From Sphingomonas sp. HMP6 (GTDB lineage Bacteria > Pseudomonadota > Alphaproteobacteria > Sphingomonadales > Sphingomonadaceae): a stretch of DNA of 64,000 nt. This document shows, one piece after another, positions 30,992 to 47,801 of this stretch (position 1 is its first letter; every line of letters starts with the position of its first letter). The notes beneath the pieces are model-generated. The model ran no database searches and had not been told where the DNA came from. It saw only the letters and a list, made by a program, of their open reading frames with translations. The stretch spans positions 2,293,501 through 2,357,500 of the forward strand of contig NZ_AP022672.1 of the NCBI RefSeq assembly GCF_013374095.1, given 5' to 3'. The translations under genes were made by a program, and so were the position numbers.

Positions 30992-32628
30992 CCCGGATTA
31001 TTCATCGGGAGCGATAATCGGTGGTGGCGATCGTGGTCTAAGTCTTTGGTTTGGAGTAGAGAAAGGGTGCTTACGCCATCCCTCTGCTCCAGACAGAAAG
31101 TGCCACGACCGCCATGGCCGACGATAGTGGGTTCTCCTTCACCTTCCCAGCCATTCGTGGTCGAAAAATCACCGCCGCGTTCGACGGCGGTCGGCTGACG
31201 TCGGACGGCGGCGTGCTACTGCTCGCACAGGCCGAGCGGCGGTTGGGGATCGCGGATCGGCTCGCCGCCTGCATCGCTGATCCGCGCGATCAGGGTCGGG
31301 TGATCCACCGGGTCGCCGACATCTTGCGCGCCCGCATGCTCGCGATCTCGTGTGGGTATGAAGACGCCAATGATCTCGACGCCCTGCGGCATGATCCAGG
31401 GTTCAAGCTGGCGCTCGGCAAACTGCCGGGTGATCCGTTCGGGCTGGCCAGCCAGCCGACGATGAGCCGGTGGGAAAACGCGCCGACTACGCGCGAGTTG
31501 ATCCGTCTGACCGGTACGCTGGTCGACCTTTATTGCGCGAGCTACCCCGTGCCACCTGCGGCGGTGACGCTCGACATCGATGATACCGTCGACGTCGTAC
31601 ACGGCGCGCAGCAGCTCTCTTTCTGGAACGGCCACTACGGCGAGCGCTGCTTCCTGCCGATCCATGTCTACGACACCGCTACCGGGCGGCCGGTTGCGAT
31701 GCTGCTGCGCACCGGCAAAACGCCGTCGGGCAAGGAAGTCGCCGGCCATGTTCGCCGGCTCGTGCGACGTATCCGTCGCCACTGGCCCGATACCCGGATC
31801 ACGCTGCGCGGCGATGGTCATTACGGTCGGCCAGAGCCGATGGCCTGGTGCGAGGCGAACGGAATCGACTACATCTTCGGGCTGCCCGGCAACCGCACGC
31901 TCCACGCCGATCCCGTCATCGTTCGGGAAGGCGATGCCTGCGCGACCGACCGGGCATTGCAGGGACTGGTCGAACTAAGGCGTTACGCAGAGACGCGCTA
32001 CGCTGCGAAAACCTGGGGGAATACCGAACGTCGCGTCGTTGCTCGCATCGAGGCGAGCAGCCTCGGCCTCGACATCCGCCTCGTTGTCACCTCGCTTGCC
32101 GAGGGCAGCGCTGAACGGATCTATGACACGCTTTACTGCGCCCGCGGCCAGGCGGAAAACTTGATCAAGCTGCATAAAACGCAGCTGAAGAGCGACCGAA
32201 CCTCCTGCTGCTCGGCCAACGCCAATCAGATGCGGCTCATCCTTCACACCGCCGCCTACTGGCTGATGTGGGCCGTGCGGCACGCTATGCCCGCAACCGC
32301 CACGCTCCGCACCGCCGAGTTCGCGACCATCCGCCTGCGGCTGCTCAAGGTCGCCGCGCGCGTCGTCGAAACCACCAGCCGCATCCGCATCGCCTTCGCA
32401 AGCGCCTGTCCCGATGCCGCGCTGTTCCGATCCATCGCGCTCAACTTGCGCACCACGGGACCATGATCGATGCGGCAGTGGCCGCCAAACGAACCCCGCC
32501 CATCAACTCCGCCCCAAACTGTGAACCCGCGATGAGACAGGCGCTTGGGACCCATGCGCCCTGCCTGCGGCTACACGACGCCTGCGCTGACCCATCGGCT
32601 GAGAAACGCTGCCGGTGAATAGATCAGG
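30992..32628 (+). mobile_element. IS1380-family insertion sequence with CTAG duplication
   Basis: A 1637 bp element flanked by direct CTAG repeats at 30988-30991 and 32629-32632, the 4 bp duplication expected for this family. Ends are CCCGGATTATTCATCGG and, inverted, CCTGATCTATTCACCGG. It carries one transposase gene. It splits a relaxase-like gene on the opposite strand. Confidence 0.95.
31114..32466 (+). CDS. IS1380-family transposase
   Basis: A 450-residue DDE transposase starting MADDSGFSFTFPAIRGRKIT. Characteristic segments are FDGGRLTSDGGVLLLAQAER near the N-terminus, VTLDIDDTVDVVHGAQQLSF with the first Asp, the basic middle HVRRLVRRIRRHWPDTRITL, and LRGDGHYGRPEPMAWCEANG with the second Asp. 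The C-terminal region CARGQAENLIKLHKTQLKSD carries the Glu. No stop or frameshift, so it may be active. It may have its promoter in the 120 bp before the ATG. Confidence 0.94.
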   Translation: MADDSGFSFTFPAIRGRKITAAFDGGRLTSDGGVLLLAQAERRLGIADRLAACIADPRDQGRVIHRVADILRARMLAISCGYEDANDLDALRHDPGFKLALGKLPGDPFGLASQPTMSRWENAPTTRELIRLTGTLVDLYCASYPVPPAAVTLDIDDTVDVVHGAQQLSFWNGHYGERCFLPIHVYDTATGRPVAMLLRTGKTPSGKEVAGHVRRLVRRIRRHWPDTRITLRGDGHYGRPEPMAWCEANGIDYIFGLPGNRTLHADPVIVREGDACATDRALQGLVELRRYAETRYAAKTWGNTERRVVARIEASSLGLDIRLVVTSLAEGSAERIYDTLYCARGQAENLIKLHKTQLKSDRTSCCSANANQMRLILHTAAYWLMWAVRHAMPATATLRTAEFATIRLRLLKVAARVVETTSRIRIAFASACPDAALFRSIALNLRTTGP

Positions 32629-34441
32629 CTAGACGCAGGCCCTCGGTGTCCATTCCCATCCGTCGCTTGCGGAGACGGCGCGACCGCGCCAAGGCGAGCG
32701 CGTCGAACATAGTGAAAATCGCAGGTTCGTTGCGCCCCGTGATGTTCGCACTGGCCGCAATGAGCGTGATCGGCGGGCGCACGGGTCGTGCGGCCGCAAG
32801 CGCCCGGCGCGGCGCCACAATGGCGCCAGGCGCGAAAGGCGACGCGACGGGACGTGCGCGACCGACTAACTCCAAGACCGATCCCGGATTTACCGGTTGG
32901 CTTGCACGAAGGTAATGAGCCGGGTCAGGAACTGGCGACACAGACCAGCGCCTTGCGCCAAGAACCGGTGCGGCGGATGTCGAGCGTATGGTAGCAGGAG
33001 CAGGCACGGTCGATGGCGCTATGGCTGCGGCTTTGACTGACGGCGTGGTTGCCGTAATGGCCGGCCGAACAGCCAGAACCGGAGTGGCCGACGTTTGTAC
33101 CTTGACCGGTGCGGTCGGCAGCGACTCAGTCCACACCCTAGCTGGCACCGGGGCGCGTACGCGCGACAGGATCGCGGCCGATTCAACGGTGGATGCGCCG
33201 CGGACAATTTTCGCCGGAGTGACATCAATGCGCCACTCAAGTCGTTTCACCGCAGCATCGCGTATCTTCGTCACCGCCGCAATCTTGTCATCGGCGTCGC
33301 GAATCGCTCGGCGCGCAGCATTGCGCGCTGCCCTGATCCGGTTGCGCTCGTGCGCCCAGACATGGCCGCCGCGCACGACAATGGCAGAGTTCCCCTCGCC
33401 GAGATGCTCACCTGTCTCGAGATCGAGCTTGCGCGCGCCGTATCCCAGACCGGTATAACGCCGATCGCTTTGAGCCTGCTCGGCCGCAGCCGACATCGAA
33501 TGTGCCCACAAATGACGAAGCATCTGGACACCGTCACGGCCGTCGAGCTCCCCGCAGACTTCGTCTGCGACCTCCCAGCAATAGGGCTCGATCCAGCGCA
33601 TCGGCCGCAGCGAGAAGGCGATGTGCGGGTGGAAATTACGCGCATCGCCCTGGGCAGGGGGGCGGTGGATCGCGGCGGAATAGGGCAGATCGAGCGGTTC
33701 GAGTACGGTCTTGCAGAAGTGCGTGAGCGCGGCGATCATCTCCGCCTCGCTCATGTCGCTATCGAAGGGCGCGATGGCGAGCATCTGGATCTTGGCGTTG
33801 GCGCGCGTGCTGGCATCTTCAAGTGCCTGCCAGGCAGCGCCGATCTCGACCCAGTCATCGCCCATATTGCTGATGATAACAGGTTCGCCAGCCTCATCGA
33901 GCAGGACTGCTTCATCGCGGACGATATACTCCCAATTCTCGCGCGCTGCGCCGCGTTTGAAGTTCGGTGACTTGCGGCCGAGATAGCTTTGTTGCCAGAT
34001 GACACCCTTCATGCCGAGCGCATCGACGGCCCAGGACGAGTCCGGGCGCGGTGCTCCGGGCATACGCACCGCCTTCATCGTGGTGCCGATAATACGCTTG
34101 GTGACCGGCGACGTCCTCGTCTCGGGCTTGTCCGGTTTGACCTGAACCTTGAACTGCGCCGCCCAGCGAATTGAGCCGTGATGAAGCTCGGCGAGTTCCT
34201 GCTGCAACGCTCGTGCCGCAGCGCGGTCTTCAAGCGCCATCTGCAGCTGGACCGCTTTCTCATGGCGCTTGATCTTGGCCTGCTTGCGCGCATCCGACCG
34301 CGCCTGCTGCATGACGATTCGGCAGTTCCCGGGCGTTGCAGGGATACAACTGCCGTCGGGCAGCAGGAGAAAGAACTCAAGAAGGGGCGGGGGTGAGACA
34401 GGGCCGGCGGAGCCGCCCGAATTGGCCGAAGGACAATTCAT
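32629..34441 (-). pseudogene. MobA/MobL-like relaxase, 5' part, interrupted by IS1380
   Basis: About 604 codons of a gene originally of 926 residues. HUH-type metal site at RNFHPHIAFSLRPMRWIEP (residues ~269-287). Downstream it has LRHLWAHSMSAAAEQ and RRYTGLGYGARKLDLETGEH plus LGEGNSAIV, the arrangement of MobA/MobL relaxases after the HxH. An N-terminal basic coiled-coil (RSDARKQAKIKRHEKAVQLQ) precedes it. The last quarter is Pro/Ala/Val-rich. The frame ends artificially in IS sequence (TGA 32624-32626). Because the gene is split, conjugative mobilisation by this relaxase should be abolished unless the two halves complement. An oriT-like structure overlaps its start. Confidence 0.8.
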
Positions 34442-34456: not shown

Positions 34457-34899
34457 CCCTTAATCCTGAATGCCTCCTCACCTGCCGCTCTTCTGATCCT
34501 GATCGAACCGCCAGCACTGTATTGATGATCTGACACACCGAACCCAGCGGCTTGAAGCGATCGATCGGTTTGGCGGATGGAAAGTAGGACCATCTCCGAC
34601 ACATCGCCGATCGGTATGTGCGCCAGCCATGACACTCCCGCTGGATTAGCGAACGATCGGCGTCGGCGCTGACTGCGGCAACGCTGGCGCACATCGAACT
34701 ATGCAAACTCAGGCACCCATCCCATAAGCTCTGAGTTGGGCATCGCGTCCAGCAGATCCGCTGGAACCCGCCGATGATCATCGCCCGCTCGACCCATCCT
34801 TCATCGCGGCATGCGCTCGCACACGCGCGAACGCGCCTGCGACTGCCGTGGCTGGCACACACACGTCTGTGGTCGATGCGTCTCGAAGGAGACGCGACC
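34457..34899. other. Intergenic region between relaxase-like gene and the unknown operon
   Basis: About 440 bp separating two divergent transcripts. A minus-strand frame is open across much of it, but its product is Cys/Arg/Trp-rich with no Shine-Dalgarno and unlike a real protein. I see no gene here. It should hold promoters for both sides. Confidence 0.5.
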
Positions 34900-35775
34900 A
34901 TGAACGACCCAGCCCCACCCCCCTGCGACGGGGACCTCGTCGGAACCCTCGACCGGTTGATCGCTGATGCCGGTGCCGCCCGACAAAGCGCGTTCTATAC
35001 GATCGCCGCGCTCTACGCCGAGCAGGCCGCACTTGGACACCATCCGCATTACCCGGCGTACATCACGGGCGGCATGCTGCTCGGGCACGGGTTCGGCGCG
35101 GGGCATATTCTCGCAGTGCTCGGTGTGCACACGCTCGATTGGCGTGAGGTTCTCGCCCCCCTGGCCGACGCGGCCCTTGAGGCCGACGACAATGCCGATC
35201 TTCTGCTTCGGCTGCGGGCTTTGTGCGAAGCGGACCCGATGCTCGAGATCGCTGGCGAGGTGCTGGCAGACGAGCTTGACCTGCTCAAGCACGGTCGCAT
35301 CGACCCGTTCTGGCTGAGGCGGCCGAAGTTCGGGCTTGGCCAGGCGGCGCTCGCGTTCGGGCTGAAGCCCCACCATGCCGAAGGGCATCGCGGGCTCTAT
35401 GCCCTGCCGCTCGAGGTGCTGCGCCGCGGGTTCGAGAATGCGGCACCGAACCAGCACGACCAGCGGTTCGGAGCTATGCTGGTGCCCGTAATCGAGACGG
35501 GTGGCGAGCGGCTCGCCCGCATCGGTGCGGCCGCCCAATACCGCAATGCCGAGACACGCTACCATGACGACAGCGCGCGGTTCGCCGCGCACCAGCGAGC
35601 GCATCCCGATCGCCGCTGGCGCTGGAAGCCGCCGCTGTCGCGCCAGGGGCATCTCGCCGTCACGACAGCGCAGACGCTGGACATCGATGTGCCGGCCGCC
35701 CGCACGCGCGGCCACGCCGCCAACTGGCTCGGTGATCATCATGCAAATCTGCGCTTCACAGTCAAGGAGTCGTGA
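34900..35775 (+). CDS. Hypothetical protein, first gene of unknown operon
   Basis: A 291-residue protein starting MNDPAPPPCDGDLVGTLDRL. AAGGAG stands 9 bp before ATG 34900, which sets the start (an upstream frame to 34774 is ignored). The body is mostly helical, with PAYITGGMLLGHGFGAGHIL (Gly-rich hydrophobic segment) and RPKFGLGQAALAFGLKPHHA. It ends with RTRGHAANWLGDHHANLRFT. No family recognised. The next gene starts 2 bp after its stop. Confidence 0.72.
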   Translation: MNDPAPPPCDGDLVGTLDRLIADAGAARQSAFYTIAALYAEQAALGHHPHYPAYITGGMLLGHGFGAGHILAVLGVHTLDWREVLAPLADAALEADDNADLLLRLRALCEADPMLEIAGEVLADELDLLKHGRIDPFWLRRPKFGLGQAALAFGLKPHHAEGHRGLYALPLEVLRRGFENAAPNQHDQRFGAMLVPVIETGGERLARIGAAAQYRNAETRYHDDSARFAAHQRAHPDRRWRWKPPLSRQGHLAVTTAQTLDIDVPAARTRGHAANWLGDHHANLRFTVKES

Positions 35776-35777
35776 CG

Positions 35778-36062
35778 ATGGCTGAGACCACCATCACCGT
35801 CGCTGGCGTCACAATCTGCGATGTCACCGGCTATCGCGCCCAGCTCACCGCGGTGCGTGCCCGGCTCGACGCAATCTACGCCGGGTTCGATCCCACCCGC
35901 CCTGAGTTGCTGCTCGTTCGCCATAACGAAATCGTCGACCTCGCCAACAATGCGGAGCGCCTGCGCGAGATCGTCGAAACCTGGGATGCGGCTAAGGAAC
36001 AACGCGCCAACGTTGTCGCCGTCTGGGAACTCGTCAAAACGTTCACCGGAGGCGGCGAATGA
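35778..36062 (+). CDS. Hypothetical 94-residue helical protein
   Basis: Starts MAETTITVAGVTICDVTGYR and is predicted helical: TAVRARLDAIYAGFDPTRPE followed by RHNEIVDLANNAERLREIVE and EQRANVVAVWELVKTF. The Shine-Dalgarno AAGGAG lies within the end of the previous gene. Its stop overlaps the start of the next gene (ATGA), indicating coupled translation. Function unknown; size and helicity suit a structural or partner subunit. Confidence 0.7.
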   Translation: MAETTITVAGVTICDVTGYRAQLTAVRARLDAIYAGFDPTRPELLLVRHNEIVDLANNAERLREIVETWDAAKEQRANVVAVWELVKTFTGGGE

Positions 36063-38446
36063 CGCCGGACCGCGCGCTCGACCGCGACACCCGTGAAGAT
36101 ATCGAAGGGCTGGTCCACCGCGGCCGGATTACGTTGCCCGAGGTAATCCTGGCCGATGGCACCGCGTCGCCGGAGCAAGTGGCAATCGTACCGCCCGGCG
36201 TCGATCTCGCCAAGGCGTTCCTGCCGTACCGCGAACTGCCTGGTCCCCCGGGCACCGGGGCAGGTGCCGCGATCGTCGGCACCCGCGAGCCCGACATCGG
36301 CCCGTATCTGGACGGGTTCGGATCAAAGGTGCTCGGTGATTACCGGCACCGCCACATCACGCGGCCGCAGAGCCGCGGCGCCATTCTCGCCTGGCTCTAC
36401 GACATCACCGGCATCCGCTATGCACCGGCTGCTTTTTGGCGGATTGCCGGCTGGGAGATCGGCTGGGCAGCCAACTGGCTCGATCGCATGTTTACAGGCG
36501 GCGCAGTGGGCGAGCTGATCGTGGCCGAGCGTCAAGCCGCTGCTGCGGTTCGCGCGGCCTGGATTGCGCAACGTGGCGGAATGACCGGCTCGCCGCTCAT
36601 AGACACCGGCATGTTGATCGCGGCGCGAGCGATCATCGACATGCTTGCCGCTTTCGAACGCGTGATCGAAGAGGCGCTGCAGGACTCCACGGTCCGCGCG
36701 AAGCGGCGGGAGATTGATGCTGCTCGCGCGGCAATCCTCCAGCGACTGCGTTCGTGCATCACGGCAATCGAGGATGCCGCGACCATCCGCATGCTCGCTT
36801 ACGACCGCGTCAAAAAGATCGACCGCGCCCTCGATCATGCGCGTGACCTCGTCGAAAGCATCGGCCTGTTCACCGCTGCCGGCGAGCAGGTAGGCGAGCG
36901 TGTGGTCCGCATCACCCAAGCGCTTCCTACGACAGGCCGTAAACCGCCGCCGATCGCCACGACGTTCGCCGCGAGTCTGAATGACCTTTCCGCGCGATTG
37001 GAAACAGTGATCGCTGCGGGCTTTGTTTCGACCACGCCCACGACATGGAGTTTCGACACGACGGGTGATCTGAGCCGTCTTCACAGTGCCGATATGCAGG
37101 CTCGCGTTGCAGCCTTGGCGCTGGTACGGACCGACCTCGTCTACAAGCTCGTCGTCACGCGGCGGCTCGATCGGCTGTTTACAGCGCTGCCATGGATGGC
37201 TGCGCCTTCAGGCGCGTTCCGCCTGACCTATGGCGGTCCGCTCGGTGCCGCGGCCGATCTGTTCGAGGTCGCGCGCTACCGCGAGATTGCGATAGAGCAG
37301 GCGCACCGCGCTCGCGAACCGCTGTCGGGCGCGCGGCTCGACACTACGCTCGGCAACGCTGTGTATAGCACGGCGTCGAAAGTTCTTAATGCTCTGACAA
37401 GCGCCACCCGCGCCGGCTTCTGGCTGGCTGGAAGCGCCCTCTCTCACCACATGGTAAAGGCGTTTTTGGCGCAAAAGCCGTTCGATCCGGCACATCCGTT
37501 GCCCACGCTGCAGGCGGGGCGGCTCGACTTTGCGTTCGAACGATCGATGCAGGACCCAGCAACGATGGCGACGGTCACCGAAACCGAGCGCGCCAAGCCG
37601 ATTTACGCCTCGACCGACTACCACCGCGACCTGCCCCGCTACATGGGGTTGACGGTTGCAGATGTGCTGACGGTTGCACTCGACGACGTCTTCCCCTGCG
37701 ACTTTCGCGACCGCACCTTCGCCAAATTCACACGCCTCGCCGACCAGCGACGCAGGGATCTAAATCGCGCTGCCCCCACGTTCGGAACTCACAAGGCGGC
37801 AGCCGCCACGTTCGGTACTGACAAAGCGGCAGCCGCCAGTCGCGAACTGCTGCGCTCGGTTTTGAAATCGATCGACCTGCCGACCGATGGCATCAGCACC
37901 GACTGGCGCCCCTCCTTGATCGTGACACGGAGCCCGGTAACGGTAGAGTTGCGCCGATTCGACGATCGCAACATCGGACATAACGGCGACCGGCTCAGCC
38001 AGGGTCGACGCCTTCGAGACCGTGCATCGGACCTCCGGGCCTTGCACAACGATCCCGGCAAGCAGCTGCGCGATCGGGTCAATCGCGCGCGTACCTGGAA
38101 AGAGGGGTATAGCCACGACCGGCCGCTCGCCGCCATATTGTCAGGCCGCCATCGCCTGGCCAGGCTGACCCCGGTTGCACAGACCGGTATTTCCGCGATC
38201 TGGTTCTATCCCGGTATCGACACGTCGATTCACAATTGGATCGCAAGCGGCGCACCGATGTGGGCGCCGCTGGCGTTCAGCAACGTCGTCCACGCCGGGC
38301 TGATTGCACGCGAAGTGCAGCAGGTGACGGCCGCTATGCCGCTGCTGCTCGGCATGCCTATCGCGCCTGCACTCCGCCAGCGCATCCTCGTGCCGCTATG
38401 GACCGGGCTCGCCGGAATTACCGAGGACCACGCCCATGTCCGGTGA
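36059..38446 (+). CDS. Large hypothetical protein with internal short repeat
   Basis: A 795-residue protein starting MTPDRALDRDTREDIEGLVH. It overlaps the previous gene by 4 bp (ATGA). The middle is helical and Ala-rich; a 10-residue motif repeats directly as AATFGTHKAA-like units (around residues 575-595), encoded by a 30 bp tandem repeat near 37775-37835. Hydrophobic segments (FWLAGSALSHHMVKAF, IWFYPGIDT and HAGLIAREVQQV) suggest a peripheral or integral association, but no clear membrane topology. No known domain recognised. Its position before a ParB-like gene in an island suggests a maintenance or transfer role, but that is inference. Confidence 0.7.
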   Translation: MTPDRALDRDTREDIEGLVHRGRITLPEVILADGTASPEQVAIVPPGVDLAKAFLPYRELPGPPGTGAGAAIVGTREPDIGPYLDGFGSKVLGDYRHRHITRPQSRGAILAWLYDITGIRYAPAAFWRIAGWEIGWAANWLDRMFTGGAVGELIVAERQAAAAVRAAWIAQRGGMTGSPLIDTGMLIAARAIIDMLAAFERVIEEALQDSTVRAKRREIDAARAAILQRLRSCITAIEDAATIRMLAYDRVKKIDRALDHARDLVESIGLFTAAGEQVGERVVRITQALPTTGRKPPPIATTFAASLNDLSARLETVIAAGFVSTTPTTWSFDTTGDLSRLHSADMQARVAALALVRTDLVYKLVVTRRLDRLFTALPWMAAPSGAFRLTYGGPLGAAADLFEVARYREIAIEQAHRAREPLSGARLDTTLGNAVYSTASKVLNALTSATRAGFWLAGSALSHHMVKAFLAQKPFDPAHPLPTLQAGRLDFAFERSMQDPATMATVTETERAKPIYASTDYHRDLPRYMGLTVADVLTVALDDVFPCDFRDRTFAKFTRLADQRRRDLNRAAPTFGTHKAAAATFGTDKAAAASRELLRSVLKSIDLPTDGISTDWRPSLIVTRSPVTVELRRFDDRNIGHNGDRLSQGRRLRDRASDLRALHNDPGKQLRDRVNRARTWKEGYSHDRPLAAILSGRHRLARLTPVAQTGISAIWFYPGIDTSIHNWIASGAPMWAPLAFSNVVHAGLIAREVQQVTAAMPLLLGMPIAPALRQRILVPLWTGLAGITEDHAHVR

Positions 38447-38525
38447 CACGAACATGACTGACATGGCTGACGTACATCAAGGGCGTGCAGGACGTGCAGA
38501 TCGAACCACAAGGATCTTTACATGA
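38436..38525 (+). CDS. Possible 29-residue coupling ORF
   Basis: ATG at 38436 lies within the end of the 795-residue gene and the ORF (MSGDTNMTDMADVHQGRAGR, then ADRTTRIFT) ends with TGA that overlaps the ATG of the ParB-like gene (ATGA at 38522-38525). It may be a real small protein or simply a device coupling translation across the gap. No recognisable motif. Confidence 0.35.
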   Translation: MSGDTNMTDMADVHQGRAGRADRTTRIFT

Positions 38526-39382
38526 CCGACCAACTACCGCTCCAGCCGCGCAAGGCCACCACCCGCGTGATACAGGTCGATCCCGCCTCGGTCCGCATCT
38601 CGCCACTCAATCCGCGCGGCAGCACGCCGCACGATCCCGAAGGCATCGCTCGGCTCGCAGCCGAACTCAAGGCGGTCGGGCAGATCAACGATGCGCACGG
38701 CGAAACCGCTGGCGATGGCGTGGTCGAGCTGCTCGCCGGCTCCCGCCGCTGTGCCGCCTGCGCGGTCGCCGGGATCCCGCTTCGTATCCGGGTCCATGCC
38801 GAGCTGCCCCGCACCGAGGCGATCGGCATCGCCTATCGCGACGATCGCGAGGCGGTGACGCCCAGCTTCTGGGACTTGGCCTGTGGCTGGGCGGCGCTGT
38901 GCGAAGGCACTACTTTCAAGACCGATGCCGACCTTGCCAATGCGGTCGGGATCGATAAGGGCATGCTGAGCCGCGGCCTTGCGCTTCGCAAGGCGCCGGA
39001 GACCATCCTCGATGCTTTCGCCGACCGCCGTGCGATCAGCATCAGCCAGTGGATCGACCTAGCACCGCTGGTCGAGGATTTGGATAGCCGTGCAAAGCTC
39101 GTCGAGCGTGCCGGGTTGATCGTCGGCAAGGGCTATACTGCGCCACGCGTTGCGGCCGAGCTCAAGGCCGCCGCCGCCGGCAAGACCGAGATCAAGGCAG
39201 TCGAGGTTTGCAATCGCCACGACCGCGTCGTCGCCACCATCCTCCCCGATCACCGCGGCGGGTTCACCATCAAGGTCAAGCCGATGACCGAGGCGCACCC
39301 CAGCTTCCGCCTGGAATATACCCGTCTCGTAAACGAACGATTCGTCGAGCTGGTGAAAACTTGGTTCGATCGCGACGCCTGA
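38522..39382 (+). CDS. ParB-like nuclease/partition-domain protein
   Basis: A 286-residue protein. The N-terminal ParB/Srx domain is seen in ISPLNPRGSTPHDPEGIARL (box I-like: NPR followed by acidic helix) and LLAGSRRCAACAVAGIPLRI (box II-like GxRRxxA). This is followed by a helix-turn-helix candidate, TDADLANAVGIDKGMLSRGL. Such domains bind DNA (parS or similar) and, in ParB, CTP. No ParA/MinD ATPase is encoded in the window, so a regulator or a plasmid/ICE-maintenance role is as likely as partition. The predicted recognition helix lies near residues 138-152. It is the fifth frame of a coupled operon. Confidence 0.8.
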   Translation: MTDQLPLQPRKATTRVIQVDPASVRISPLNPRGSTPHDPEGIARLAAELKAVGQINDAHGETAGDGVVELLAGSRRCAACAVAGIPLRIRVHAELPRTEAIGIAYRDDREAVTPSFWDLACGWAALCEGTTFKTDADLANAVGIDKGMLSRGLALRKAPETILDAFADRRAISISQWIDLAPLVEDLDSRAKLVERAGLIVGKGYTAPRVAAELKAAAAGKTEIKAVEVCNRHDRVVATILPDHRGGFTIKVKPMTEAHPSFRLEYTRLVNERFVELVKTWFDRDA

Positions 39383-40538: not shown

Positions 40539-41186
40539 TCAGACAGAGAACCGCAGTCCATCGAGTTCGTGGGCAAGCTCATCCTCGGTCGCCATCGTTT
40601 CCCAGGCGAACCCCTGCACGACGCCAGGCATATAGCCGGTAGTATCAACGACCAGTGCAGCGCCGCCTATCCTTCGCACTGCGTTCTGCAATGCGGCGGA
40701 ACCAACCGCGCTCAATTCGCCTAGCATGCCGGTATACCGCTCATCATGCCGACCTTGTCGGCCCAGATCCGCTAATGCGGAAGCCTCGATGACGATGACC
40801 GTCTCGTCGCCAAGGGGCCGCCGGGCAAGATAGCTTGCTGGTAGCGCCGCCTGCGCTCCCGCTAGAAGAGCCGGTGTCAGCGTGTCCCACCGCTCGACGA
40901 CATACCGTGCGGCGAGCGAGGGCACCATGAACGCCGCCATCAGCCGGACAGCGGTCGCAAGCGCGGCCAGTTCGACGATACCGTATTGCAGTGGACCGGC
41001 TGATCGCGCGCCATCGCGTGGGGACACGCCGAGACGCTGAAGCTGCCGGATACGTGCATCGAATGCGGTACGCGCAGACGGATCGACACCGCATGCCGAC
41101 ATCAAGAGCGGGATAGCCTGCGCATAACGAAGGGCGAGTCGAGGCTGAGGGGTCGTCGGCATCGGTGCTGATTGCCATGACTGCAA
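40539..41186 (-). CDS. Hypothetical protein divergent from the Ubl/E1 operon
   Basis: A 215-residue protein starting MQSWQSAPMPTTPQPRLALR. Mostly helical with AIPLLMSACGVDPSARTAFD, QLQRLGVSPRDGARSAGPLQ (helix-turn-helix-like spacing) and GDETVIVIEASALADLGRQG. It ends in EDELAHELDGLRFSV. I do not recognise a family. It lies head-to-head with the operon beginning at 41244, so the interval 41187-41243 must contain both promoters; a regulatory role is possible but unsupported by a clear DNA-binding motif. M at 41162 is an alternative start. The 168 bp to the DUF1281-like gene contain nothing firm. Confidence 0.65.
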   Translation of the reverse strand: MQSWQSAPMPTTPQPRLALRYAQAIPLLMSACGVDPSARTAFDARIRQLQRLGVSPRDGARSAGPLQYGIVELAALATAVRLMAAFMVPSLAARYVVERWDTLTPALLAGAQAALPASYLARRPLGDETVIVIEASALADLGRQGRHDERYTGMLGELSAVGSAALQNAVRRIGGAALVVDTTGYMPGVVQGFAWETMATEDELAHELDGLRFSV

Positions 41187-41243: not shown

Positions 41244-41885
41244 ATGCAACTTATTCCGCTTCACGATCCTGCCGACAACGCGTTCCGTCTGCGCCAGAAC
41301 GGCAAGAGCAAGAACGCGCTCGAACTGCTCGCGCAGCCACCCGGAAGTCGGGCAGCGCCGACCATCGTTTGGAGCCGCCGCTTCGAGACGACCGAGGATC
41401 GCGATACGCTGCTGGGTGCCGTGAAAAAGGGCCAGCTCGATACGGTTTTCCTCGGCCGGCTCACCATGATGTTCGGCAGCGACGCGCTCGACGAGCTGGC
41501 AGACAGGCTCGTCGCTGCTGCCCGGTCGAAACGCGAAGAGAAACTGGAGGAAGCAGCCGAGCGGGCGCGCAAACATTTCGTGGTCAACCTGTACGCCCGC
41601 GAAGGCAAGCACGGACGCCATTTGCTTGAGCTGCAGCGCAAGAGCAGCGATACGGCGGAATGGTCGATCACCTACGATCGCGCCATCGAACGTGACCGGC
41701 TGTGCGACTGGCTTCGCTGGCAGAAGGGGCGGTTCCTCGGCTTTCTCGAACACGCCGCCGAGCATGGCGGCGAAGCGCTCTCGCGTATGCTGATCGACGA
41801 AATGTTCGCCGCCGAACGCCGGGTCAGAGCAGAACGGCGCGGTGCCGGTGGCATGCGCCCCTTGCGCATGTGGCGGGGCGACTGA
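41244..41885 (+). CDS. Hypothetical first gene of the Ubl/E1 operon
   Basis: A 213-residue protein. The start ATG 41244 is set by the promoter at 41206-41234, giving a nearly leaderless message; no Shine-Dalgarno is visible there, nor for an in-frame ATG at 41187. The product has ATTPxxRLRQNGKSKNALEL-like N-terminus (MQLIPLHDPADNAFRLRQNG), a long basic coiled-coil region (AARSKREEKLEEAAERARKH) and a C-terminal basic tail. No family recognised. Its TGA overlaps the next ATG (TGATG), so it is the first gene of a coupled operon leading into the AAA+ protein, the ubiquitin-like protein and E1. Confidence 0.72.
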   Translation: MQLIPLHDPADNAFRLRQNGKSKNALELLAQPPGSRAAPTIVWSRRFETTEDRDTLLGAVKKGQLDTVFLGRLTMMFGSDALDELADRLVAAARSKREEKLEEAAERARKHFVVNLYAREGKHGRHLLELQRKSSDTAEWSITYDRAIERDRLCDWLRWQKGRFLGFLEHAAEHGGEALSRMLIDEMFAAERRVRAERRGAGGMRPLRMWRGD

Positions 41886-42766
41886 TGGCAACCCTCGCAC
41901 CCTTCCAGACCGCCACGCCCGCGATGATCGTCGGTTATAGAGATGGCGACGAGCCGCTGCCGCTCGAACTTGGCGAACCCTTCGCGCTGCTCGGCGGCGA
42001 CCGGCTCGGTCCTGATGGCATCCCGTTCCTCGTTATGCATGAGCACCAGCCCGACTTCCTCGCCTGGGTTCGTAAGCGCTGTGCGGCGATGCTCGCCGCC
42101 GAGCGGCCGTGGTTTGGCGGCGGCACACTCATTCTCGGCGGTGTCGAAGGTGTTGGTCGTACCCACGCCGCGCGCTGGCTTGCACGGGTGGTCGGCGTGC
42201 CGCACGCCGTGCTCAATCTGACCAATCCTGTCGTTGCTGCCAACGTTGCCGCCTCGGGCGAGATTGGCGAGGCGATGGGTGCGTCGCCAGTCACCATTGC
42301 CATGGCGACCGCGCGTTGCGCCAATCCGGTAGTTACCGTGGTCGGTGCCGACCGTGTCGGTGACAACGTGCTTGCCGGGCTCGCGGCGATGATTGATCCG
42401 GAGCGCTGTCGCCGCTGGCGCGAGGACCGCCTCGGTATAGACGTGGATCTTGGCGAAGTGACCTGGATTCTCCAGCGCGATATGAGGCGCGGCATTCCGT
42501 CGTGGGTGGCTCCTGGCGCCGACACGGTTGCGTTGCGAGCGGCTCCCTCCGGGTTTGATCACGTTCTGGCGCTGTCGATCTGCAGCGAGGCGATGGGAGA
42601 TCTCGGGATCGATCCGCGCGCAGGAACCGTCTCGTGGCAACGCATTCGCGAGCAGCTGCCGCGCTACGGCCAGAGCTCCGCGAAGGCGCTTTACGCGAAC
42701 ATCGTCAATGCCCTGCGAGAGTGCCTGCGCCCAAGCGAAACACCGATAGATCACGAGCTATTCTGA
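41885..42766 (+). CDS. Lon-like AAA+ protein with altered Walker motifs
   Basis: A 293-residue protein. Walker A is GVEGVGRT (residues ~86-93) with Arg where ATPases have Lys. The Walker B position reads NPVVTVVGADR (147-157), with Asp but no Glu. The next segment AAMIDPERCRRWREDRLGID followed by VDLGEVTWI matches the order of the Lon AAA+ module (LDPEQN..F.DHYLD...DLS.V.FI). It lacks a Lon protease domain. ATP may bind but hydrolysis is doubtful. It starts 1 bp inside the previous gene's stop (TGATG) and precedes the ubiquitin-like gene by 14 bp with AGAGGAG. Role in a ubiquitin-like pathway is inferred from position. Confidence 0.72.
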   Translation: MATLAPFQTATPAMIVGYRDGDEPLPLELGEPFALLGGDRLGPDGIPFLVMHEHQPDFLAWVRKRCAAMLAAERPWFGGGTLILGGVEGVGRTHAARWLARVVGVPHAVLNLTNPVVAANVAASGEIGEAMGASPVTIAMATARCANPVVTVVGADRVGDNVLAGLAAMIDPERCRRWREDRLGIDVDLGEVTWILQRDMRRGIPSWVAPGADTVALRAAPSGFDHVLALSICSEAMGDLGIDPRAGTVSWQRIREQLPRYGQSSAKALYANIVNALRECLRPSETPIDHELF

Positions 42767-42780
42767 AGAGGAGAACGTGC

Positions 42781-43152
42781 ATGTTGCCGACCGTTACCCC
42801 TGTCACGCCAATCGCCACCTCGGCGACCCTACTGCCCCCGCTCGCGCCACGCCGCCGCGCATTATATCTCGTCGGCGAGGCAGAGCGCTCTACGCCGCGC
42901 CCAGCGGCCGCAGTTGGGCGGACGATGATTTCGGTCAACGGTCGCTGGAACGCTTTGCGCGGTCGCAGCGCGACCTATGCACAGTTGCTGCGCATCGCCT
43001 TTCCAGACCGCGAGGGACAGGATCCCGGGGTGGCGACCGTGTCGTTCCGCAATACGCTCGACGGAGGGCTTTCCGGATTGCTGACGCCGGGTGACGTTGT
43101 GCCGCTTGCCGATGGCCTGCTGGTCAACGTCAACGCCACTTATGCCAGTTGA
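42781..43152 (+). CDS. Ubiquitin-like (beta-grasp) protein
   Basis: A 123-residue protein. The first ~47 residues are Pro/Ala-rich and likely flexible. Residues 49-123 form a prokaryotic ubiquitin-like domain: ISVNGRW, TYAQLLRIAFPDREG, ATVSFRNTLDGGLSGLLTPG, then VVPLADGLLVNVNATYAS. This follows the pattern 'VNG....TY.QLL.LAFP....TV.Y......G.L..G..V...DG..FNV..T' of bacterial Ubl proteins encoded next to ThiF/E1 enzymes. It ends in AS with no di-Gly. The Ubl gene overlaps the E1 gene by 11 bp, so the two are co-translated. A Shine-Dalgarno AGAGGAG lies 6 bp before the ATG. Confidence 0.78.
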   Translation: MLPTVTPVTPIATSATLLPPLAPRRRALYLVGEAERSTPRPAAAVGRTMISVNGRWNALRGRSATYAQLLRIAFPDREGQDPGVATVSFRNTLDGGLSGLLTPGDVVPLADGLLVNVNATYAS

Positions 43153-43915
43153 GCCGGACAGCGCGGTGGCGGAGAACGGCGCCACCAGTCCGTTCGTCTA
43201 TCCCGACACTGACTCAACCCGCGCCGGGATCGAAGCGGTGTCGCGCCGGCTCGCCGGTGGCACCATAGCGATCATCGGGCTGGGCGGCACCGGCTCGGTC
43301 GTGCTCGACCTTATCAGCAAGACGCCCGCCGACCGCATCCTGCTGATCGACGGCGACCGCGCCGAGCAGCACAACGCGTTCCGTTGGCCGGGCGCGATGG
43401 CGATCGAGGACATTGCGGCGAAACTGTTCAAGGTCGAGTATTTTGCAAATATCTATGGCCGGATGCACACCGGGATCGAACCGCACGCGGTGCATCTTGC
43501 CACCAATACGATTGGCTTGCTCGAGGAAGCGGACTTCGTGTTCGTGTGCGTTGACAGCATCGCGGCGCGCGCCTTTATCATTCCAGCGCTCGAGCAACGC
43601 GACCTGCCCTTTATCGATTGCGGCCTTGGCCTCAGCCTGATCGACGACCGGTTGATGGGCCTGATCCGCGTTACCACCAGTACGCCGACGATGCGCACCC
43701 ACGTCCACGTCAAAGATCGGATCCCGTTGACGGGAAATGCCGACGACGAACTTTACCGCAGCAACATCCAGGTTGCCGACCTCAACATGCTGGCCGGCAC
43801 ACTGGCGGTGATTCAGTACAAACAATTGCGTGGCTTCTATGTCGACACCGAGGCCGAATATCACGCCATCTACTCGACCGATGGCAACGCGATCATCAAC
43901 GCGGATCGCGCGTAG
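43142..43915 (+). CDS. E1-like ThiF-family adenylyltransferase
   Basis: A 257-residue enzyme that would activate the adjacent Ubl by adenylation. Nucleotide loop IIGLGGTGSVVLDLI (residues ~44-58), LLIDGDRAEQHNAFRWPG with the Asp-Asn-Arg triad, FKVEYFANIYGRMH with the Lys region, VCVDSIAAR, and FIDCGLG with a candidate catalytic Cys at ~160. The later part RVTTSTPTMRTHVHVKDRI, NIQVADLNMLAGTLAVIQYK and GFYVDTEAEYHAIY resembles E1 domains of bacterial Ubl operons. No zinc CxxC pairs are visible. It overlaps the Ubl gene at its start and the convergent gene at its end by 20 bp. No E2 or JAB peptidase is recognised in the window. Confidence 0.85.
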   Translation: MPVEPDSAVAENGATSPFVYPDTDSTRAGIEAVSRRLAGGTIAIIGLGGTGSVVLDLISKTPADRILLIDGDRAEQHNAFRWPGAMAIEDIAAKLFKVEYFANIYGRMHTGIEPHAVHLATNTIGLLEEADFVFVCVDSIAARAFIIPALEQRDLPFIDCGLGLSLIDDRLMGLIRVTTSTPTMRTHVHVKDRIPLTGNADDELYRSNIQVADLNMLAGTLAVIQYKQLRGFYVDTEAEYHAIYSTDGNAIINADRA

Positions 43916-44738
43916 CCGCGAAACGATGGCGCGCTTCCTCGACCAAGCCGTTCAGCCGGCGGCGCTCGCTCAAGGTTGCGCGCCACGGAAAAGCGGGATC
44001 CGCATCGGACGGTATAACGTTCAATGCGGCGGCTGGCACTGGCTCGAGCGGGGTCCAATGACTTTCGACTTCGAAAACGACCGCCAATCCCTCGTTCGCA
44101 ACGCCGATGATCCCGAGTTCGGCTGCAACGAAGAAGGGATGGCTGACGACGTCGGCAAGCGGCCGCAGCGCATTCGCGCGGGCATCTTTCTGCAGCGCGC
44201 AAATCAGCGTTTCGGGCAGCTTGTGCGCCTCGATGCGGATACGCGCTGTCTCTCCCAAGGTCGCGATGCAGCGCGGCTGATCGCAGAGTTCGATCCGCTC
44301 GGCGATCGCCACGCCACCCCGCACCCTGATCCTGGCACCGCCTTGGCCGAGGTCGCGCCGGGCCCGCCGGTCGAGATGGCCGGCAACTGGCGCGGTGCCG
44401 ATAGCGTCGCTGAGCGCGAGGGCCTTGCTCAAAGCATTACTCACGCCCGCCCAGGCAAGCCATTTGGCGAGGACGTCGGAGCCACTCACCAACCAAAGCA
44501 GTGGCAGCTGAGGTTCGGCCCCGGCAGCCTCGATCATGCGCCGCGCCCGCTCGACGGCGATGGTCGCCTCTATGGCCGCGGCGAGTTGTTCGAACGCGAG
44601 ACCGATCGACGTCGTCGTGGTATCGAATTCGATGCGTGCTCCCGTGATGGCGATGCCGAACCGCTCTTCGTCTCCATCGGCGGACCAAGCCCCTCGGTCC
44701 ACCATCGCCAGCATTTGATCGACCAGGTTGCGCATCAT
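43896..44738 (-). CDS. Hypothetical protein convergent with the E1 gene
   Basis: A 280-residue protein starting MMRNLVDQMLAMVDRGAWSA. It has a helical N-half (FEQLAAAIEATIAVERARRM), LLWLVSGSDVLAKWLAWAGV, a middle GGARIRVRGGVAIAERIELC and a tail LNGLVEEARHRFAATRDPR. GGAGG lies 11 bp before the ATG. The last 20 bp overlap the E1 gene's 3' end on the other strand. Not recognised; it shows no E2 catalytic Cys-context or JAB motif (HxH, D). Confidence 0.65.
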   Translation of the reverse strand: MMRNLVDQMLAMVDRGAWSADGDEERFGIAITGARIEFDTTTTSIGLAFEQLAAAIEATIAVERARRMIEAAGAEPQLPLLWLVSGSDVLAKWLAWAGVSNALSKALALSDAIGTAPVAGHLDRRARRDLGQGGARIRVRGGVAIAERIELCDQPRCIATLGETARIRIEAHKLPETLICALQKDARANALRPLADVVSHPFFVAAELGIIGVANEGLAVVFEVESHWTPLEPVPAAALNVIPSDADPAFPWRATLSERRRLNGLVEEARHRFAATRDPR

Positions 44739-44791
44739 TGCCTTGCCAGCCTCCAGACTCTGCCGCCCGAGAATCTAAACCTTATAACCCA

Positions 44792-44801
44792 CACGATCGT
44801 G
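44792..44801. promoter_or_regulatory. Palindrome sharing the ACGATCGT core with the Ubl-operon promoter
   Basis: CACGATCGTG is a perfect 10 bp palindrome lying in the 160 bp leader before the next small ORF. It shares its central eight bases with the palindrome at 41221-41230. A common regulator is possible, though eight bases can match by chance. Confidence 0.3.
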
Positions 44802-44898
44802 CTGAACATCCGCTGCCCAAAGTTTGGCAAGCGAATCATCCCGATTGCCCCGCGACTGACATCGCTGCCGTACATCGATCCCGTCCAGACGCTGATGC

Positions 44899-45099
44899 AT
44901 GGCATCGCCGCCCAACCCGTCGGGAAGACCCCCTGCTGCAAAAGCGGTCTCACGCGATGTCCGCCAGGTCGTCGACCATTTGCCTCGCTCGTTCGACGTG
45001 GGGGCCGACGAATCGACCTGGCTGCTCACGCTCCTCAGCGCAAACGAGCTGCGCTACATCTTCGAAGGAAAACACGATGACGACCAGCGTTCAAATTGA
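44899..45099 (+). CDS. Small hypothetical protein before the recombinase genes
   Basis: A 66-residue ORF, MASPPNPSGRPPAAKAVSRD, with a natural-looking helical continuation VRQVVDHLPRSFDVGADEST and WLLTLLSANELRYIFEGKHD. It overlaps the start of the downstream recombinase fragment (ATG 45077). No Shine-Dalgarno is strong. Family unknown. Confidence 0.45.
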   Translation: MASPPNPSGRPPAAKAVSRDVRQVVDHLPRSFDVGADESTWLLTLLSANELRYIFEGKHDDDQRSN

Positions 45100-45481
45100 G
45101 CGTGCCCTCGGCTATTTCCGGACGTCGAGCCAGACTCAGGCGAGCGAAGGCACCGGTGTCGACAAGCAGGAAGCCGATCTTCGCGATTATTACCGCGGCC
45201 AGAGTATCGATCTGGTCGCGATCTATCGTGACAGCGCCGTGGCTGGCACCACCGACAATCACACCGCTCTGCAAGCGCTGATAGAACACGCCATTCGTCC
45301 CGGCAGTGGCGTCACCGAGATCGGGGTCTGCAGCTTGTCCCGCCTGTCTCGCGACCCCGATCTGCTCGATGAGGTTCGCCGAACGCTCGAGCGAGCAAGC
45401 ATCCGCCTCGTCGCGATCTCCGAGGTCGCCGGGCAGGCGACAAGCAACATCCTTGTGCGCAGCACCGAGACGACGTTGTGA
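45077..45481 (+). CDS. Truncated serine recombinase (catalytic domain only)
   Basis: A 134-residue protein equivalent to the N-terminal resolvase domain. RALGYFRTSSQTQASEGTGV carries the catalytic Ser region, and IYRDSAVAGTTDNHTALQAL and RPGSGVTEIGVCSLSRLSRD align residue by residue with the large recombinase at 46124 (about 60% by eye). The protein ends (STETTL) where the recombinase would continue into its DNA-binding part, which is missing. It is therefore a partial duplicate. AAGGAAAA lies before ATG 45077. It may be non-functional, or act as a regulator or partner of the intact copy. Confidence 0.75.
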   Translation: MTTSVQIERALGYFRTSSQTQASEGTGVDKQEADLRDYYRGQSIDLVAIYRDSAVAGTTDNHTALQALIEHAIRPGSGVTEIGVCSLSRLSRDPDLLDEVRRTLERASIRLVAISEVAGQATSNILVRSTETTL

Positions 45482-46123: not shown

Positions 46124-47755
46124 ATGGCCGGCAAACGTCCTCAGCGAGCTCTCGGCTATGTTCGGGTTTCGACCCAACGCCAGGCCGATGGCGGGATCAG
46201 CCTCGCTAACCAGGAGCAAAAGCTCGGCGAGCATTATCGCCGTCTTGGCGTCGAGCTGGTCGACATCTATCGCGACGCCGGGCTGTCGGGAACGACCGAC
46301 AATCGCCCCGGCCTTCAGGCATTGTTCGAACATGCATTGCGACCCGGCAGCGGCATCACCGAGATTGGCATCTACACATTCTCGCGGCTGTTCCGGGACC
46401 ATTATCTGCTGGAGCATCATCGGCGGCGGCTGAAACGCGCGGGCGTGCGCATCGTCGCGATCACACAGGAGGTCGGGCATGACGCCGAAGGCGATCTCGT
46501 CCGTGGCGTGTTATCGAGCTTCGACGAGTATCAGTCGCGCCAGACCGCCAAGTTCACGCTCGACACCATGATGCGCAACGCGGAAGCGGGGTATTGGAAC
46601 GGCGCCGTCCCGCCATTCGGCTATGTCAGCGAGATAGTGGAGATGCGCGGACCCAAGGCCAAGAAGCGGTTGGCGATCGAACCCTCCGAAGCGCTCATGG
46701 TGCAGCAGATCTACCGGATGAAGCGGATCGGGGTCGGCAAAGGCCCGATGGGCTATAAAAAGATCGTCTGCCACCTCAACGCGACGGGCGCGACCCTGCG
46801 CGGGCGCAAGTGGCACGTCTCCAACGTTCGCGACATCCTCACTCGCTCGACTTATCGCGGTATCCACCTCTACGGCGTCCATGATATCCGCAACGGCGTC
46901 AAACGATCCGAGGAGGAATGGCAGAAGGTCGCCGTGCCGGTCATCGTGCCCGAAGCGGAGTGGCTCGAGATCCAGGCTGGCATCGTCCGCAATTCCCGGC
47001 ACGTCACCCCGCCCACCTTCGTATCCGGACCAACGATGCTCGCGGGCATCGCCAAATGCGGACATCCCGAATGCGGTCACGCCCTTACGATCGCCACCGG
47101 CAAGGGTGGTCGCTACCGCTATTATCGCTGTTCACGGCGCCTGCGCCGCGGCGAGACCGTCTGTCCTGGCATCAGCATGCGCGATCACGCGCTCGAGACG
47201 ATCGTGATCGATGCGATGGCCGACCGCCTGTTTCGCCCCGACCGCCTTCGTGCACTCCTCGCCAATCTGCTGGACGATAGTTCAACGGCGGTTCGCGAGC
47301 GTCAAGCGCATCTGAAAGCGCTTCGTACCGAGCGGACCAGAGCCGAGGGTGCGATCCACAACATGTTCGATTTTATCGAGCAGAATAAAGTCAGTGTGCA
47401 CGATGAAGATTTTAGCGCACGGCTCGCCAACCAGCGGGTACGCCGCGCCGATCTCGAGCAAGAAATCCAGTTGGTCGAGCGCCAGCTTTCCACAGCGGAC
47501 AGGCACGTTACACCCGAGGCGATCGACAGACTGGGAGAGATGCTCCTTACAAAATTGCGTTCGGAAGACAGGAGCGTTCGTCAGGGTTATGCGCGGCGGT
47601 TTATCGGAAAGGTAGTCGTCACGCCGACCACGATCACCATTACCGGACCCATCAAACCCCTAGAATTCGCCGCCAACTACGATGCCGAAAAGAGAGCACC
47701 AATGGTGCCCTCTCTTGATCGGGAGTGGTGCCGCTTACAGGACTCGAACCTGTGA
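46124..47755 (+). CDS. Large serine recombinase (site-specific integrase)
   Basis: A 543-residue integrase. Resolvase domain (1-150) with LGYVRVSTQRQADGG including the catalytic Ser, IYRDAGLSGTTDNRPGLQAL and GIYTFSRLFRDHYLL; recombinase domain near 165-275 (AGYWNGAVPPFGYVSEIVEM). A zinc-ribbon region near 315-360 has CGHPECGHALTI and YYRCSRRLRRGETVCPG. A coiled-coil follows (residues 375-450). GAAAGG precedes ATG 46124. The final eight codons (RLQDSNL stop) lie inside the tRNA-Thr gene in antisense, so the C-terminus is completed by the attachment site. It presumably integrated the island. Confidence 0.92.
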   Translation: MAGKRPQRALGYVRVSTQRQADGGISLANQEQKLGEHYRRLGVELVDIYRDAGLSGTTDNRPGLQALFEHALRPGSGITEIGIYTFSRLFRDHYLLEHHRRRLKRAGVRIVAITQEVGHDAEGDLVRGVLSSFDEYQSRQTAKFTLDTMMRNAEAGYWNGAVPPFGYVSEIVEMRGPKAKKRLAIEPSEALMVQQIYRMKRIGVGKGPMGYKKIVCHLNATGATLRGRKWHVSNVRDILTRSTYRGIHLYGVHDIRNGVKRSEEEWQKVAVPVIVPEAEWLEIQAGIVRNSRHVTPPTFVSGPTMLAGIAKCGHPECGHALTIATGKGGRYRYYRCSRRLRRGETVCPGISMRDHALETIVIDAMADRLFRPDRLRALLANLLDDSSTAVRERQAHLKALRTERTRAEGAIHNMFDFIEQNKVSVHDEDFSARLANQRVRRADLEQEIQLVERQLSTADRHVTPEAIDRLGEMLLTKLRSEDRSVRQGYARRFIGKVVVTPTTITITGPIKPLEFAANYDAEKRAPMVPSLDREWCRLQDSNL

Positions 47756-47801
47756 CCCCCGCATTACGAATGCGATGCTCTACCAACTGAGCTAAAGCGG
47801 C
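47726..47801 (-). tRNA. tRNA-Thr, anticodon CGT; island insertion point
   Basis: On the minus strand: acceptor GCCGCTT, D-arm AGCTCAGTTGGTAGAGC, anticodon loop TTCGTAA (anticodon CGT for ACG), T-arm ACAGGTTCGAGTCCTGT, and encoded CCA at 47726-47728; 76 nt. The plus-strand recombinase gene ends inside it. The tRNA is intact, as expected when an element carries the 3' part of the tRNA in its att site. I found no second copy of its 3' end near the left side of the island. Confidence 0.95.

Follow-up and report, generated by a model that had tools for sequence, protein, structure and literature searches.

The 64,000-nucleotide stretch of Sphingomonas sp. HMP6 DNA analysed here (the window), which is part of a 3.64-Mb single-contig genome, carries on a mobile element a four-gene operon for the protein cc213, a Lon-derived AAA+ protein whose ATPase motifs appear to be destroyed (pseudo-Lon), a ubiquitin-like protein (Ubl) and an E1/ThiF-family adenylyltransferase (E1). 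Our preferred reading, to which we give a probability of roughly 0.4, is that the operon is a reduced, mobile offshoot of the multiubiquitin/ThiF system, in which the Ubl would be activated without an E2 and pseudo-Lon and cc213 would act as scaffold, specificity factor or acceptor. Sequence comparison shows a single Multi_ubiq Ubl, an E1 that has kept its ThiF core and lost DUF6791, and the absence of DUF6527, and it also shows that the motif-less AAA+ protein and a two-repeat cc213 are regular partners of this pair. The operon also provides a clear case in which membership of a Ubl operon goes with the loss of ATPase motifs (31 of 31 linked copies versus none of eight relatives), and this association counts in favour of the preferred reading.

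Organization of the operon

The four open reading frames (ORFs) of a first-pass annotation, made from the DNA sequence alone, and the overlap of the Ubl and E1 genes were confirmed (Table 1). The ATG of the AAA+ gene overlaps the cc213 stop codon by one base, GAGGAG stands directly before the Ubl gene, and the E1 gene starts 11 nucleotides inside the Ubl gene. The operon is flanked on the opposite strand by two genes, m215 and m280, and the closest named relatives of its proteins in protein searches are from Sphingomonas. The ratio of nonsynonymous to synonymous substitution rates (dN/dS) is 0.10-0.26 across the four genes with four comparisons each, values that are rough because dS is near saturation (0.66-1.75). 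The four proteins are under purifying selection and the gene order is the same in related loci, which together argue that the operon is more than a chance arrangement. The annotation's central claim, of a genuine Ubl, E1 and motif-less Lon-like AAA+ protein linked on a mobile element, therefore stands.

Conservation of the gene set in related loci

We collected loci from three sources and removed duplicates, which left 31 loci chosen for having cc (cc213-type), AAA+, Ubl and E1 genes; they are numbered below with an L. The first source is a pattern scan of genome contigs, which is biased towards this family because GRTH and RCANP are part of its patterns; all 12 of its loci have the full set. 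The second consists of the 14 best AAA+ places in 396 Sphingomonadales genomes, one of them the window, seven of which have the full set; the remaining seven (L050-L056) have no cc, Ubl or E1 gene within about 20 kb. The third source, a search of 295 Sphingomonas genomes, gave 33 cc places at E<=9.2e-12. Of these places, 28 fall within the 31 loci, 27 of them having a ThiF part in the E1, and they come from 25 of the 295 genomes (24 with the ThiF part). The co-occurrence survey suggested by the first-pass annotation thus finds the set conserved together in many islands.

The 31 loci divide into 14 short-form loci, mostly on the same element as in the window, and 17 long-form loci. The DUF6791 part of the E1 is absent from all short-form loci and present in all long-form loci, with Pfam naming DUF6791 in L011 and L012, and the ThiF part is present in 30 of the 31. 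Both flanking genes, m215 and m280, have matches in all 14 short-form loci and in none of the 17 long-form loci. A six-sequence DUF6527 profile has no match in the short-form loci and one in the long-form loci (L115); PF20137 (DUF6527) was not found in the whole genome to which the window belongs. L115 (2650-7538) is the only locus found with cc, pseudo-Lon, a long multiubiquitin gene, a DUF6791-E1 and DUF6527, and its retention of cc and AAA+ genes beside the full trio was counted in favour of derivation from a multiubiquitin/ThiF cassette. An RNase_T-type exonuclease gene (L012 8170-9051) was also seen in 10 of the 17 long-form stretches, directly before cc in seven of them.

The pairwise distances of the proteins are strongly correlated over 27 of the 31 loci (L003, L013, L105 and L111 excluded), with r=0.95 for AAA+ and E1, 0.92 for AAA+ and cc, and 0.90 for the third pair, none of 2000 permutations being as high. 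Within 14 long-form loci alone the correlations are 0.81-0.91. Pseudo-Lon, cc and E1 thus co-diversify.

Five standard plasmid cassettes (Croceicoccus, Rhizobium, Tritonibacter, Acinetobacter and Leptolyngbya; 5 of 114 plasmid records that match the E1) carry genes for multiubiquitin, a DUF6791-E1 and DUF6527, without any cc or AAA+ match. The association of these genes with AAA+ claimed in the first-pass annotation therefore holds in the Sphingomonadales branch, the only one from which it is known, and not in these cassettes.

Loss of ATPase motifs in pseudo-Lon

The annotation had also matched the 293-residue protein to the Lon AAA+ module and noted Arg in place of the Walker A Lys together with loss of the Walker B Glu. 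As a single sequence the window protein reaches only E 0.04 against the Lon model; the profile A1, built from it and 29 of 116 matches, confirms the assignment by matching PDB Lon at 2.8e-11 over profile positions 79-282. This match spans the AAA+ module into the following helical part, and the ORF stops after the AAA+ module, so that the protease domain is absent. A further profile, A3, matches 394 of the 396 Sphingomonadales genomes at E<=0.001. Among the matches listed below the 14 family members, most are frames of at least about 800 residues, and the four of these that were read all have the Lon Walker motifs.

In the window protein, Walker A is GxxGxGRTH, with Arg for Lys, and the Walker B Asp-Glu pair has become Val-Gly, as first noted. 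An alignment with four genomic Lon proteins was used to score the motifs of the 31 Ubl-linked copies; Walker A is intact in none of them. The Lys is missing in 29, with Arg in its position in 26 and Ala, the motif being erased, in three (L047-L049); in L109 and L111 it is kept and the Thr/Ser after it is gone. The Walker B Asp-Glu pair is missing in all 31, with Asp alone kept in L110 and L113 and other acidic residues at the site in L109 and L111. In contrast, both motifs are intact in all eight relatives seen without Ubl genes, and a 100/100 branch separates the Ubl-linked copies from the others in the tree. The AAA+ gene has a dN/dS of 0.12-0.16 in four comparisons, which argues against decay. 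Where it stands beside Ubl genes, the AAA+ protein is thus kept without its hydrolysis motifs. Pseudo-Lon would on these grounds be non-hydrolysing, and the GRTH sequence, kept in 22 of the 31 copies, may still bind nucleotide.

The eight relatives with intact motifs are themselves protease-less Lon-like AAA+ proteins. Seven are the Sphingomonadales copies of L050-L056, each near 9.6-10.4 kb of its stretch, and the eighth lies on a megaplasmid of Methylorubrum extorquens AM1 (L129 4191-5810). Relaxase-like genes also occur in L050 and L056.

The Ubl and E1

The window Ubl matches PF14452 (Multi_ubiq) at E 5.5e-5 with 23.7 bits, 0.8 under the cut-off of 24.5, and the profile A2, built from it and 26 of 64 matches, reaches the solved multi-ubiquitin protein 9cd2 at 4.8e-6. 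These profile searches bear out its identification as a beta-grasp Ubl. The multiubiquitin protein of L011 has three Multi_ubiq stretches, and the window Ubl aligns to the third (hhalign E 9.1e-12); its N-terminal extension holds a conserved YLVGEAERS-like motif. The Ubl had been singled out for ending in AS rather than Gly-Gly. That ending is indeed present, but it does not distinguish the window, because Ser ends all 36 Ubls that were read: AS or LS in 14 of 14 short-form loci, KS or AS in 17 of 17 long-form loci and KS or QS in 5 of 5 standard plasmid cassettes. All 27 A2 members end in AS. An ending of this kind is therefore normal for the class. A metagenome protein of 424 residues (P0140) has pseudo-Lon and a Ubl in one chain; this fusion may be artefactual, as part of its interior looks frame-shifted.

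The E1 matches ThiF (PF00899) at 1.4e-11 and PRK06153 (NF004805) at 6.9e-83 over the C-terminal 245 positions, with 278.9 bits against a full-length cut-off of 352. In an alignment of 15 members, among them the five from the standard plasmid cassettes, it retains the glycine-rich loop and all other invariant positions. The tree, which has several long branches, an unsure inner order and two untrimmed E1 rows, joins its 13 short E1s in a single group at 100/100.

The cc213 protein

The first-pass annotation described the leading protein of the operon as a coiled coil. The protein does lead the operon, but the label is a poor one, as its AlphaFold model (pLDDT 87.5, pTM 0.60) has two beta3-alpha3 repeats and one long helix. 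The repeat is also found in the window sequence itself, with none of 500 shuffles scoring as high; it is weak in L012 (7 of 500 shuffles as high) and absent in L011 (311 of 500). The protein ends in a conserved tail, RPLRMWRGD in the window, which as RPLR-[MF]-WRG occurs in 25 of 27 sequences, the other two being one-letter variants. No family matches cc213 at any curated cut-off, and no protease domain was found in it; nor did Pfam, NCBIfam, PADLOC and PDB sequence searches find a nuclease, membrane pore or NADase domain in cc213 or the AAA+ protein. One of the 17 sequences in the cc alignment (A4) matches a 51-residue stretch of IetS at E 4e-4. Proteins of the cc type also occur without an AAA+, Ubl or E1 gene of their own, in L114, L116, L117 and L118 and as a second cc in L110 (4312-4992). 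The tail recurs as RPLR-[FY]-W in those of L114, L116 and L118, which indicates that the cc domain also exists independently of the Ubl module.

The mobile element and its neighbourhood

Table 1. Features of the window in and around the Ubl operon
Feature	Position	Strand	Description
cc213	41244-41885	+	213 residues; two beta3-alpha3 repeats; first gene of the operon
Pseudo-Lon AAA+	41885-42766	+	293 residues; Lon-type module without N domain or protease domain
Ubl	42781-43152	+	123 residues; one Multi_ubiq beta-grasp domain at about residues 50-123; C-terminus YAS
E1/ThiF-family adenylyltransferase	43142-43915	+	257 residues; PRK06153 family; without N-terminal DUF6791
m215	40539-41186	-	divergent neighbour
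m280	43896-44738	-	convergent neighbour; confident model, no convincing solved relative
ParB-like protein	38522-39382	+	TIGR00180 E 3.4e-9, under its cut-off; element backbone, outside the Ubl module
Backbone genes o333, o96, o795	34774-38446	+	element
MobA/MobL-type relaxase	32624-34441	-	PF03389 2.3e-6
Large serine recombinase	46124-47755	+	PF00239, PF07508, PF13408

The serine recombinase gene ends inside a tRNA-Thr gene (47726-47801, minus strand), the presumed integration site of the element. The region 44738-45481 holds an N-terminal resolvase domain without the remainder of a recombinase and is followed by an unassigned ORF to 46023; together they look like a broken second recombinase. 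A second MobA/MobL-type gene (29124-29786, minus strand) lies close to the relaxase, with a DDE transposase (31114-32466) between the two.

No E2, JAB, RING-like or DUF6527 gene was recognised among the neighbours scanned with Pfam, or with NCBIfam for ten proteins, in line with the first-pass annotation, which had reported no E2, JAB or RING-like gene nearby. Fold comparisons of cc213 and m280, which are not decisive, gave no E2 or JAB either.

The long-form locus L011 lies near a helix-turn-helix (HTH)-ImmA/IrrE gene and a Beta_protein gene, and L012, also long-form, near a TniB-like gene and a Mu-type transposase. HTH and ImmA/IrrE genes adjoin two of the five plasmid cassettes, and excerpts of a 2016 study (PMC4963859) state that 70% of Pfam multiubiquitin genes adjoin COG2856/DUF955 loci. 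This setting fits cargo involved in conflict or maintenance.

Proposed function and alternatives

To our knowledge, the ubiquitin-like systems described from bacteria have E2, JAB or metal-binding partners. In the mechanism that we propose for the E2-less offshoot, the E1 would adenylate the C-terminal carboxylate of the Ubl in an ATP-dependent manner, as its homology suggests, and the activated Ubl would pass straight from the E1 to an acceptor with no cysteine E2 between them. Pseudo-Lon, perhaps still as a ring-like assembly, would join cc213 in the supporting roles named at the outset and not serve as an unfoldase. The module would travel as cargo of an integrative element, most likely directed against phages or rival elements, or else protecting the element, and it probably functions in conflicts among mobile elements or against phages. 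We think it unlikely that the arrangement goes as far as an inactive Lon AAA+ assembly and a cc protein replacing the E2/E3 layer, with pseudo-Lon acting as a receptor and offering the acceptor to the E1-activated Ubl, and with its ATPase motifs lost on recruitment by the Ubl genes. In that case the tail of cc213, which is reminiscent of the ubiquitin tail LRLRGG, might even serve the E1 as a second substrate.

Several observations weigh against the E2-less offshoot. At five of the 33 cc places the set is missing (L114, L116, L117, L118 and the second cc in L110). In L111 (2984-3496) the E1 consists of the DUF6791 part only, the ThiF part not being found in the stretch, and in the near-identical loci L013 (11273-12471) and L105 (4356-5533) two overlapping frames make up the E1, divided at its DUF6791/ThiF junction, which may reflect a sequencing error, a pseudogene or a real split. 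The 31 loci include near copies (L002/L003, L012/L013/L105, L048/L049 and L109/L111), so the counts are less than independent, and the correlated distances fit contacts between the proteins but would also be expected from joint transfer of the operon. A Prok-JAB gene lies elsewhere in the same genome (G000:C1:629188-629478), and its product might supply Ubl peptidase activity in trans. In PADLOC, the cc213, AAA+ protein and Ubl of the window match nothing, and the E1 shows only a partial E1-E2 similarity.

Pseudo-Lon and cc213 might instead be the effector or the target, assembled or disassembled by attachment or binding of the Ubl, much as CBASS (cyclic-oligonucleotide-based antiphage signalling) reportedly conjugates its operon's own enzyme. 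We regard this as doubtful. The strong conservation of the cc213 tail and the single AAA+/Ubl chain of P0140 would suit such a role; however, the searches described above show no effector-like domain in cc213 or the AAA+ protein, and P0140 with its frame-shifted-looking stretch may be an artefact.

It is rather improbable that the operon works in element maintenance, serving segregation or transfer together with the ParB-like gene and the backbone genes. Backbone genes do accompany 11 of the 14 short-form loci in the fetched stretches, with a ParB gene in 9 of 14, but they are found in none of the 17 long-form stretches, and L011 and L012 sit in other settings, which suggests that the core module moves on its own.

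We find it distinctly improbable that the Ubl is a ThiS/MoaD-like sulfur carrier for a cofactor or nucleoside modification of the element, with pseudo-Lon incidental. The E1 core of the window is of the ThiF/MoeB kind, which according to portions of a published account (PMC12355090) serves ThiS and MoaD; the same portions describe a C-terminal Gly-Gly shared by these carriers, whereas the Ubls here uniformly end in Ser, and no sulfurtransferase or cofactor-biosynthesis family was found among the scanned neighbours. Finally, the operon is hardly a remnant of a multiubiquitin cassette decaying after the loss of its catalytic partners: it has lost DUF6791, DUF6527, the additional Ubl domains seen in longer forms and its AAA+ motifs, and the long-form relatives include one truncated E1 and two split ones, but the six genes compared all have dN/dS values well under 1, matches to cc, AAA+, Ubl and ThiF are present in every one of the 14 short-form loci, and the short E1s form their single group, the five that were aligned keeping the invariant residues.

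Comparison with known systems

Bil (BilABCD) resembles the window in having a Ubl and an E1 in a bacterial operon. Its two-domain Ubl, its E2 with a catalytic Cys, its JAB peptidase and its larger E1 with a Cys domain, as given in parts of a published description (PMC11354881), are none of them recognised in the window. In type II CBASS, the E1-E2 protein Cap2 corresponds to the partial PADLOC similarity seen in the E1 adenylation core (best 5e-7), whereas the window has no E2 part and no CD-NTase family was found among the scanned neighbours. The E1 core is likewise related to that of Citrobacter BubCD (PDB 9ea4; E 1.3e-6). Residues 41-164 of the window E1 match BubCD from residue 189, and only 40 residues precede them, so that about 180 N-terminal BubCD residues have no match. 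The PRTRC cassette differs, with the window E1 scoring 14.2 bits against its ThiF family (TIGR03736; cut-off 144.75). Compared with Lon protease, pseudo-Lon shares the profile match described above and lacks the protease domain, the N domain, the Walker A Lys and the Walker B Asp-Glu pair.

The closest known relative is the multiubiquitin/ThiF class, which part of the 2006 survey by Iyer et al. (PMC1779556) describes as operon type 6e, with a JAB or another N-terminal domain on the E1 and a Zn-finger or metal-binding protein in the operon; its plasmid form is described as a 'multiubiquitin cassette' in excerpts of the 2016 study (PMC4963859). We infer that the uncharacterised E1 domain of type 6e is DUF6791 and that its Zn-finger protein is DUF6527. 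The window shares with this class the Multi_ubiq domain, overlapping Ubl and E1 genes, the C-terminal Ser and a mobile setting, and its E1 is of the same family, 46-48% identical to the five plasmid copies. It differs in lacking DUF6791 and DUF6527, in having one Ubl domain, and in its extra partners cc213 and pseudo-Lon; among the five plasmid Ubls, two (88 and 94 residues) likewise look single-domain. The earlier suggestion of a new kind of Ubl-E1 tagging pair is thus not borne out, as the pair belongs to a known class, and the set is best described as a variant derived from the multiubiquitin/ThiF cassette and not a full member, since two parts are missing.

The Ubl-E1 core is therefore already known, and the cc/pseudo-Lon partnership appears to be the new feature of the variant. 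We found no description of these partners in the open-access literature, which leaves most subscription papers outside and is weak evidence of novelty. A branch that keeps a Ubl and an E1 beside an apparently inactive AAA+ motor bears on how specificity and transfer might run without an E2. Together with the known cassettes, the loci form a natural series suited to testing part by part: the standard trio, the trio with cc and pseudo-Lon (L115), loci without DUF6527, and loci also without DUF6791, as in the window.

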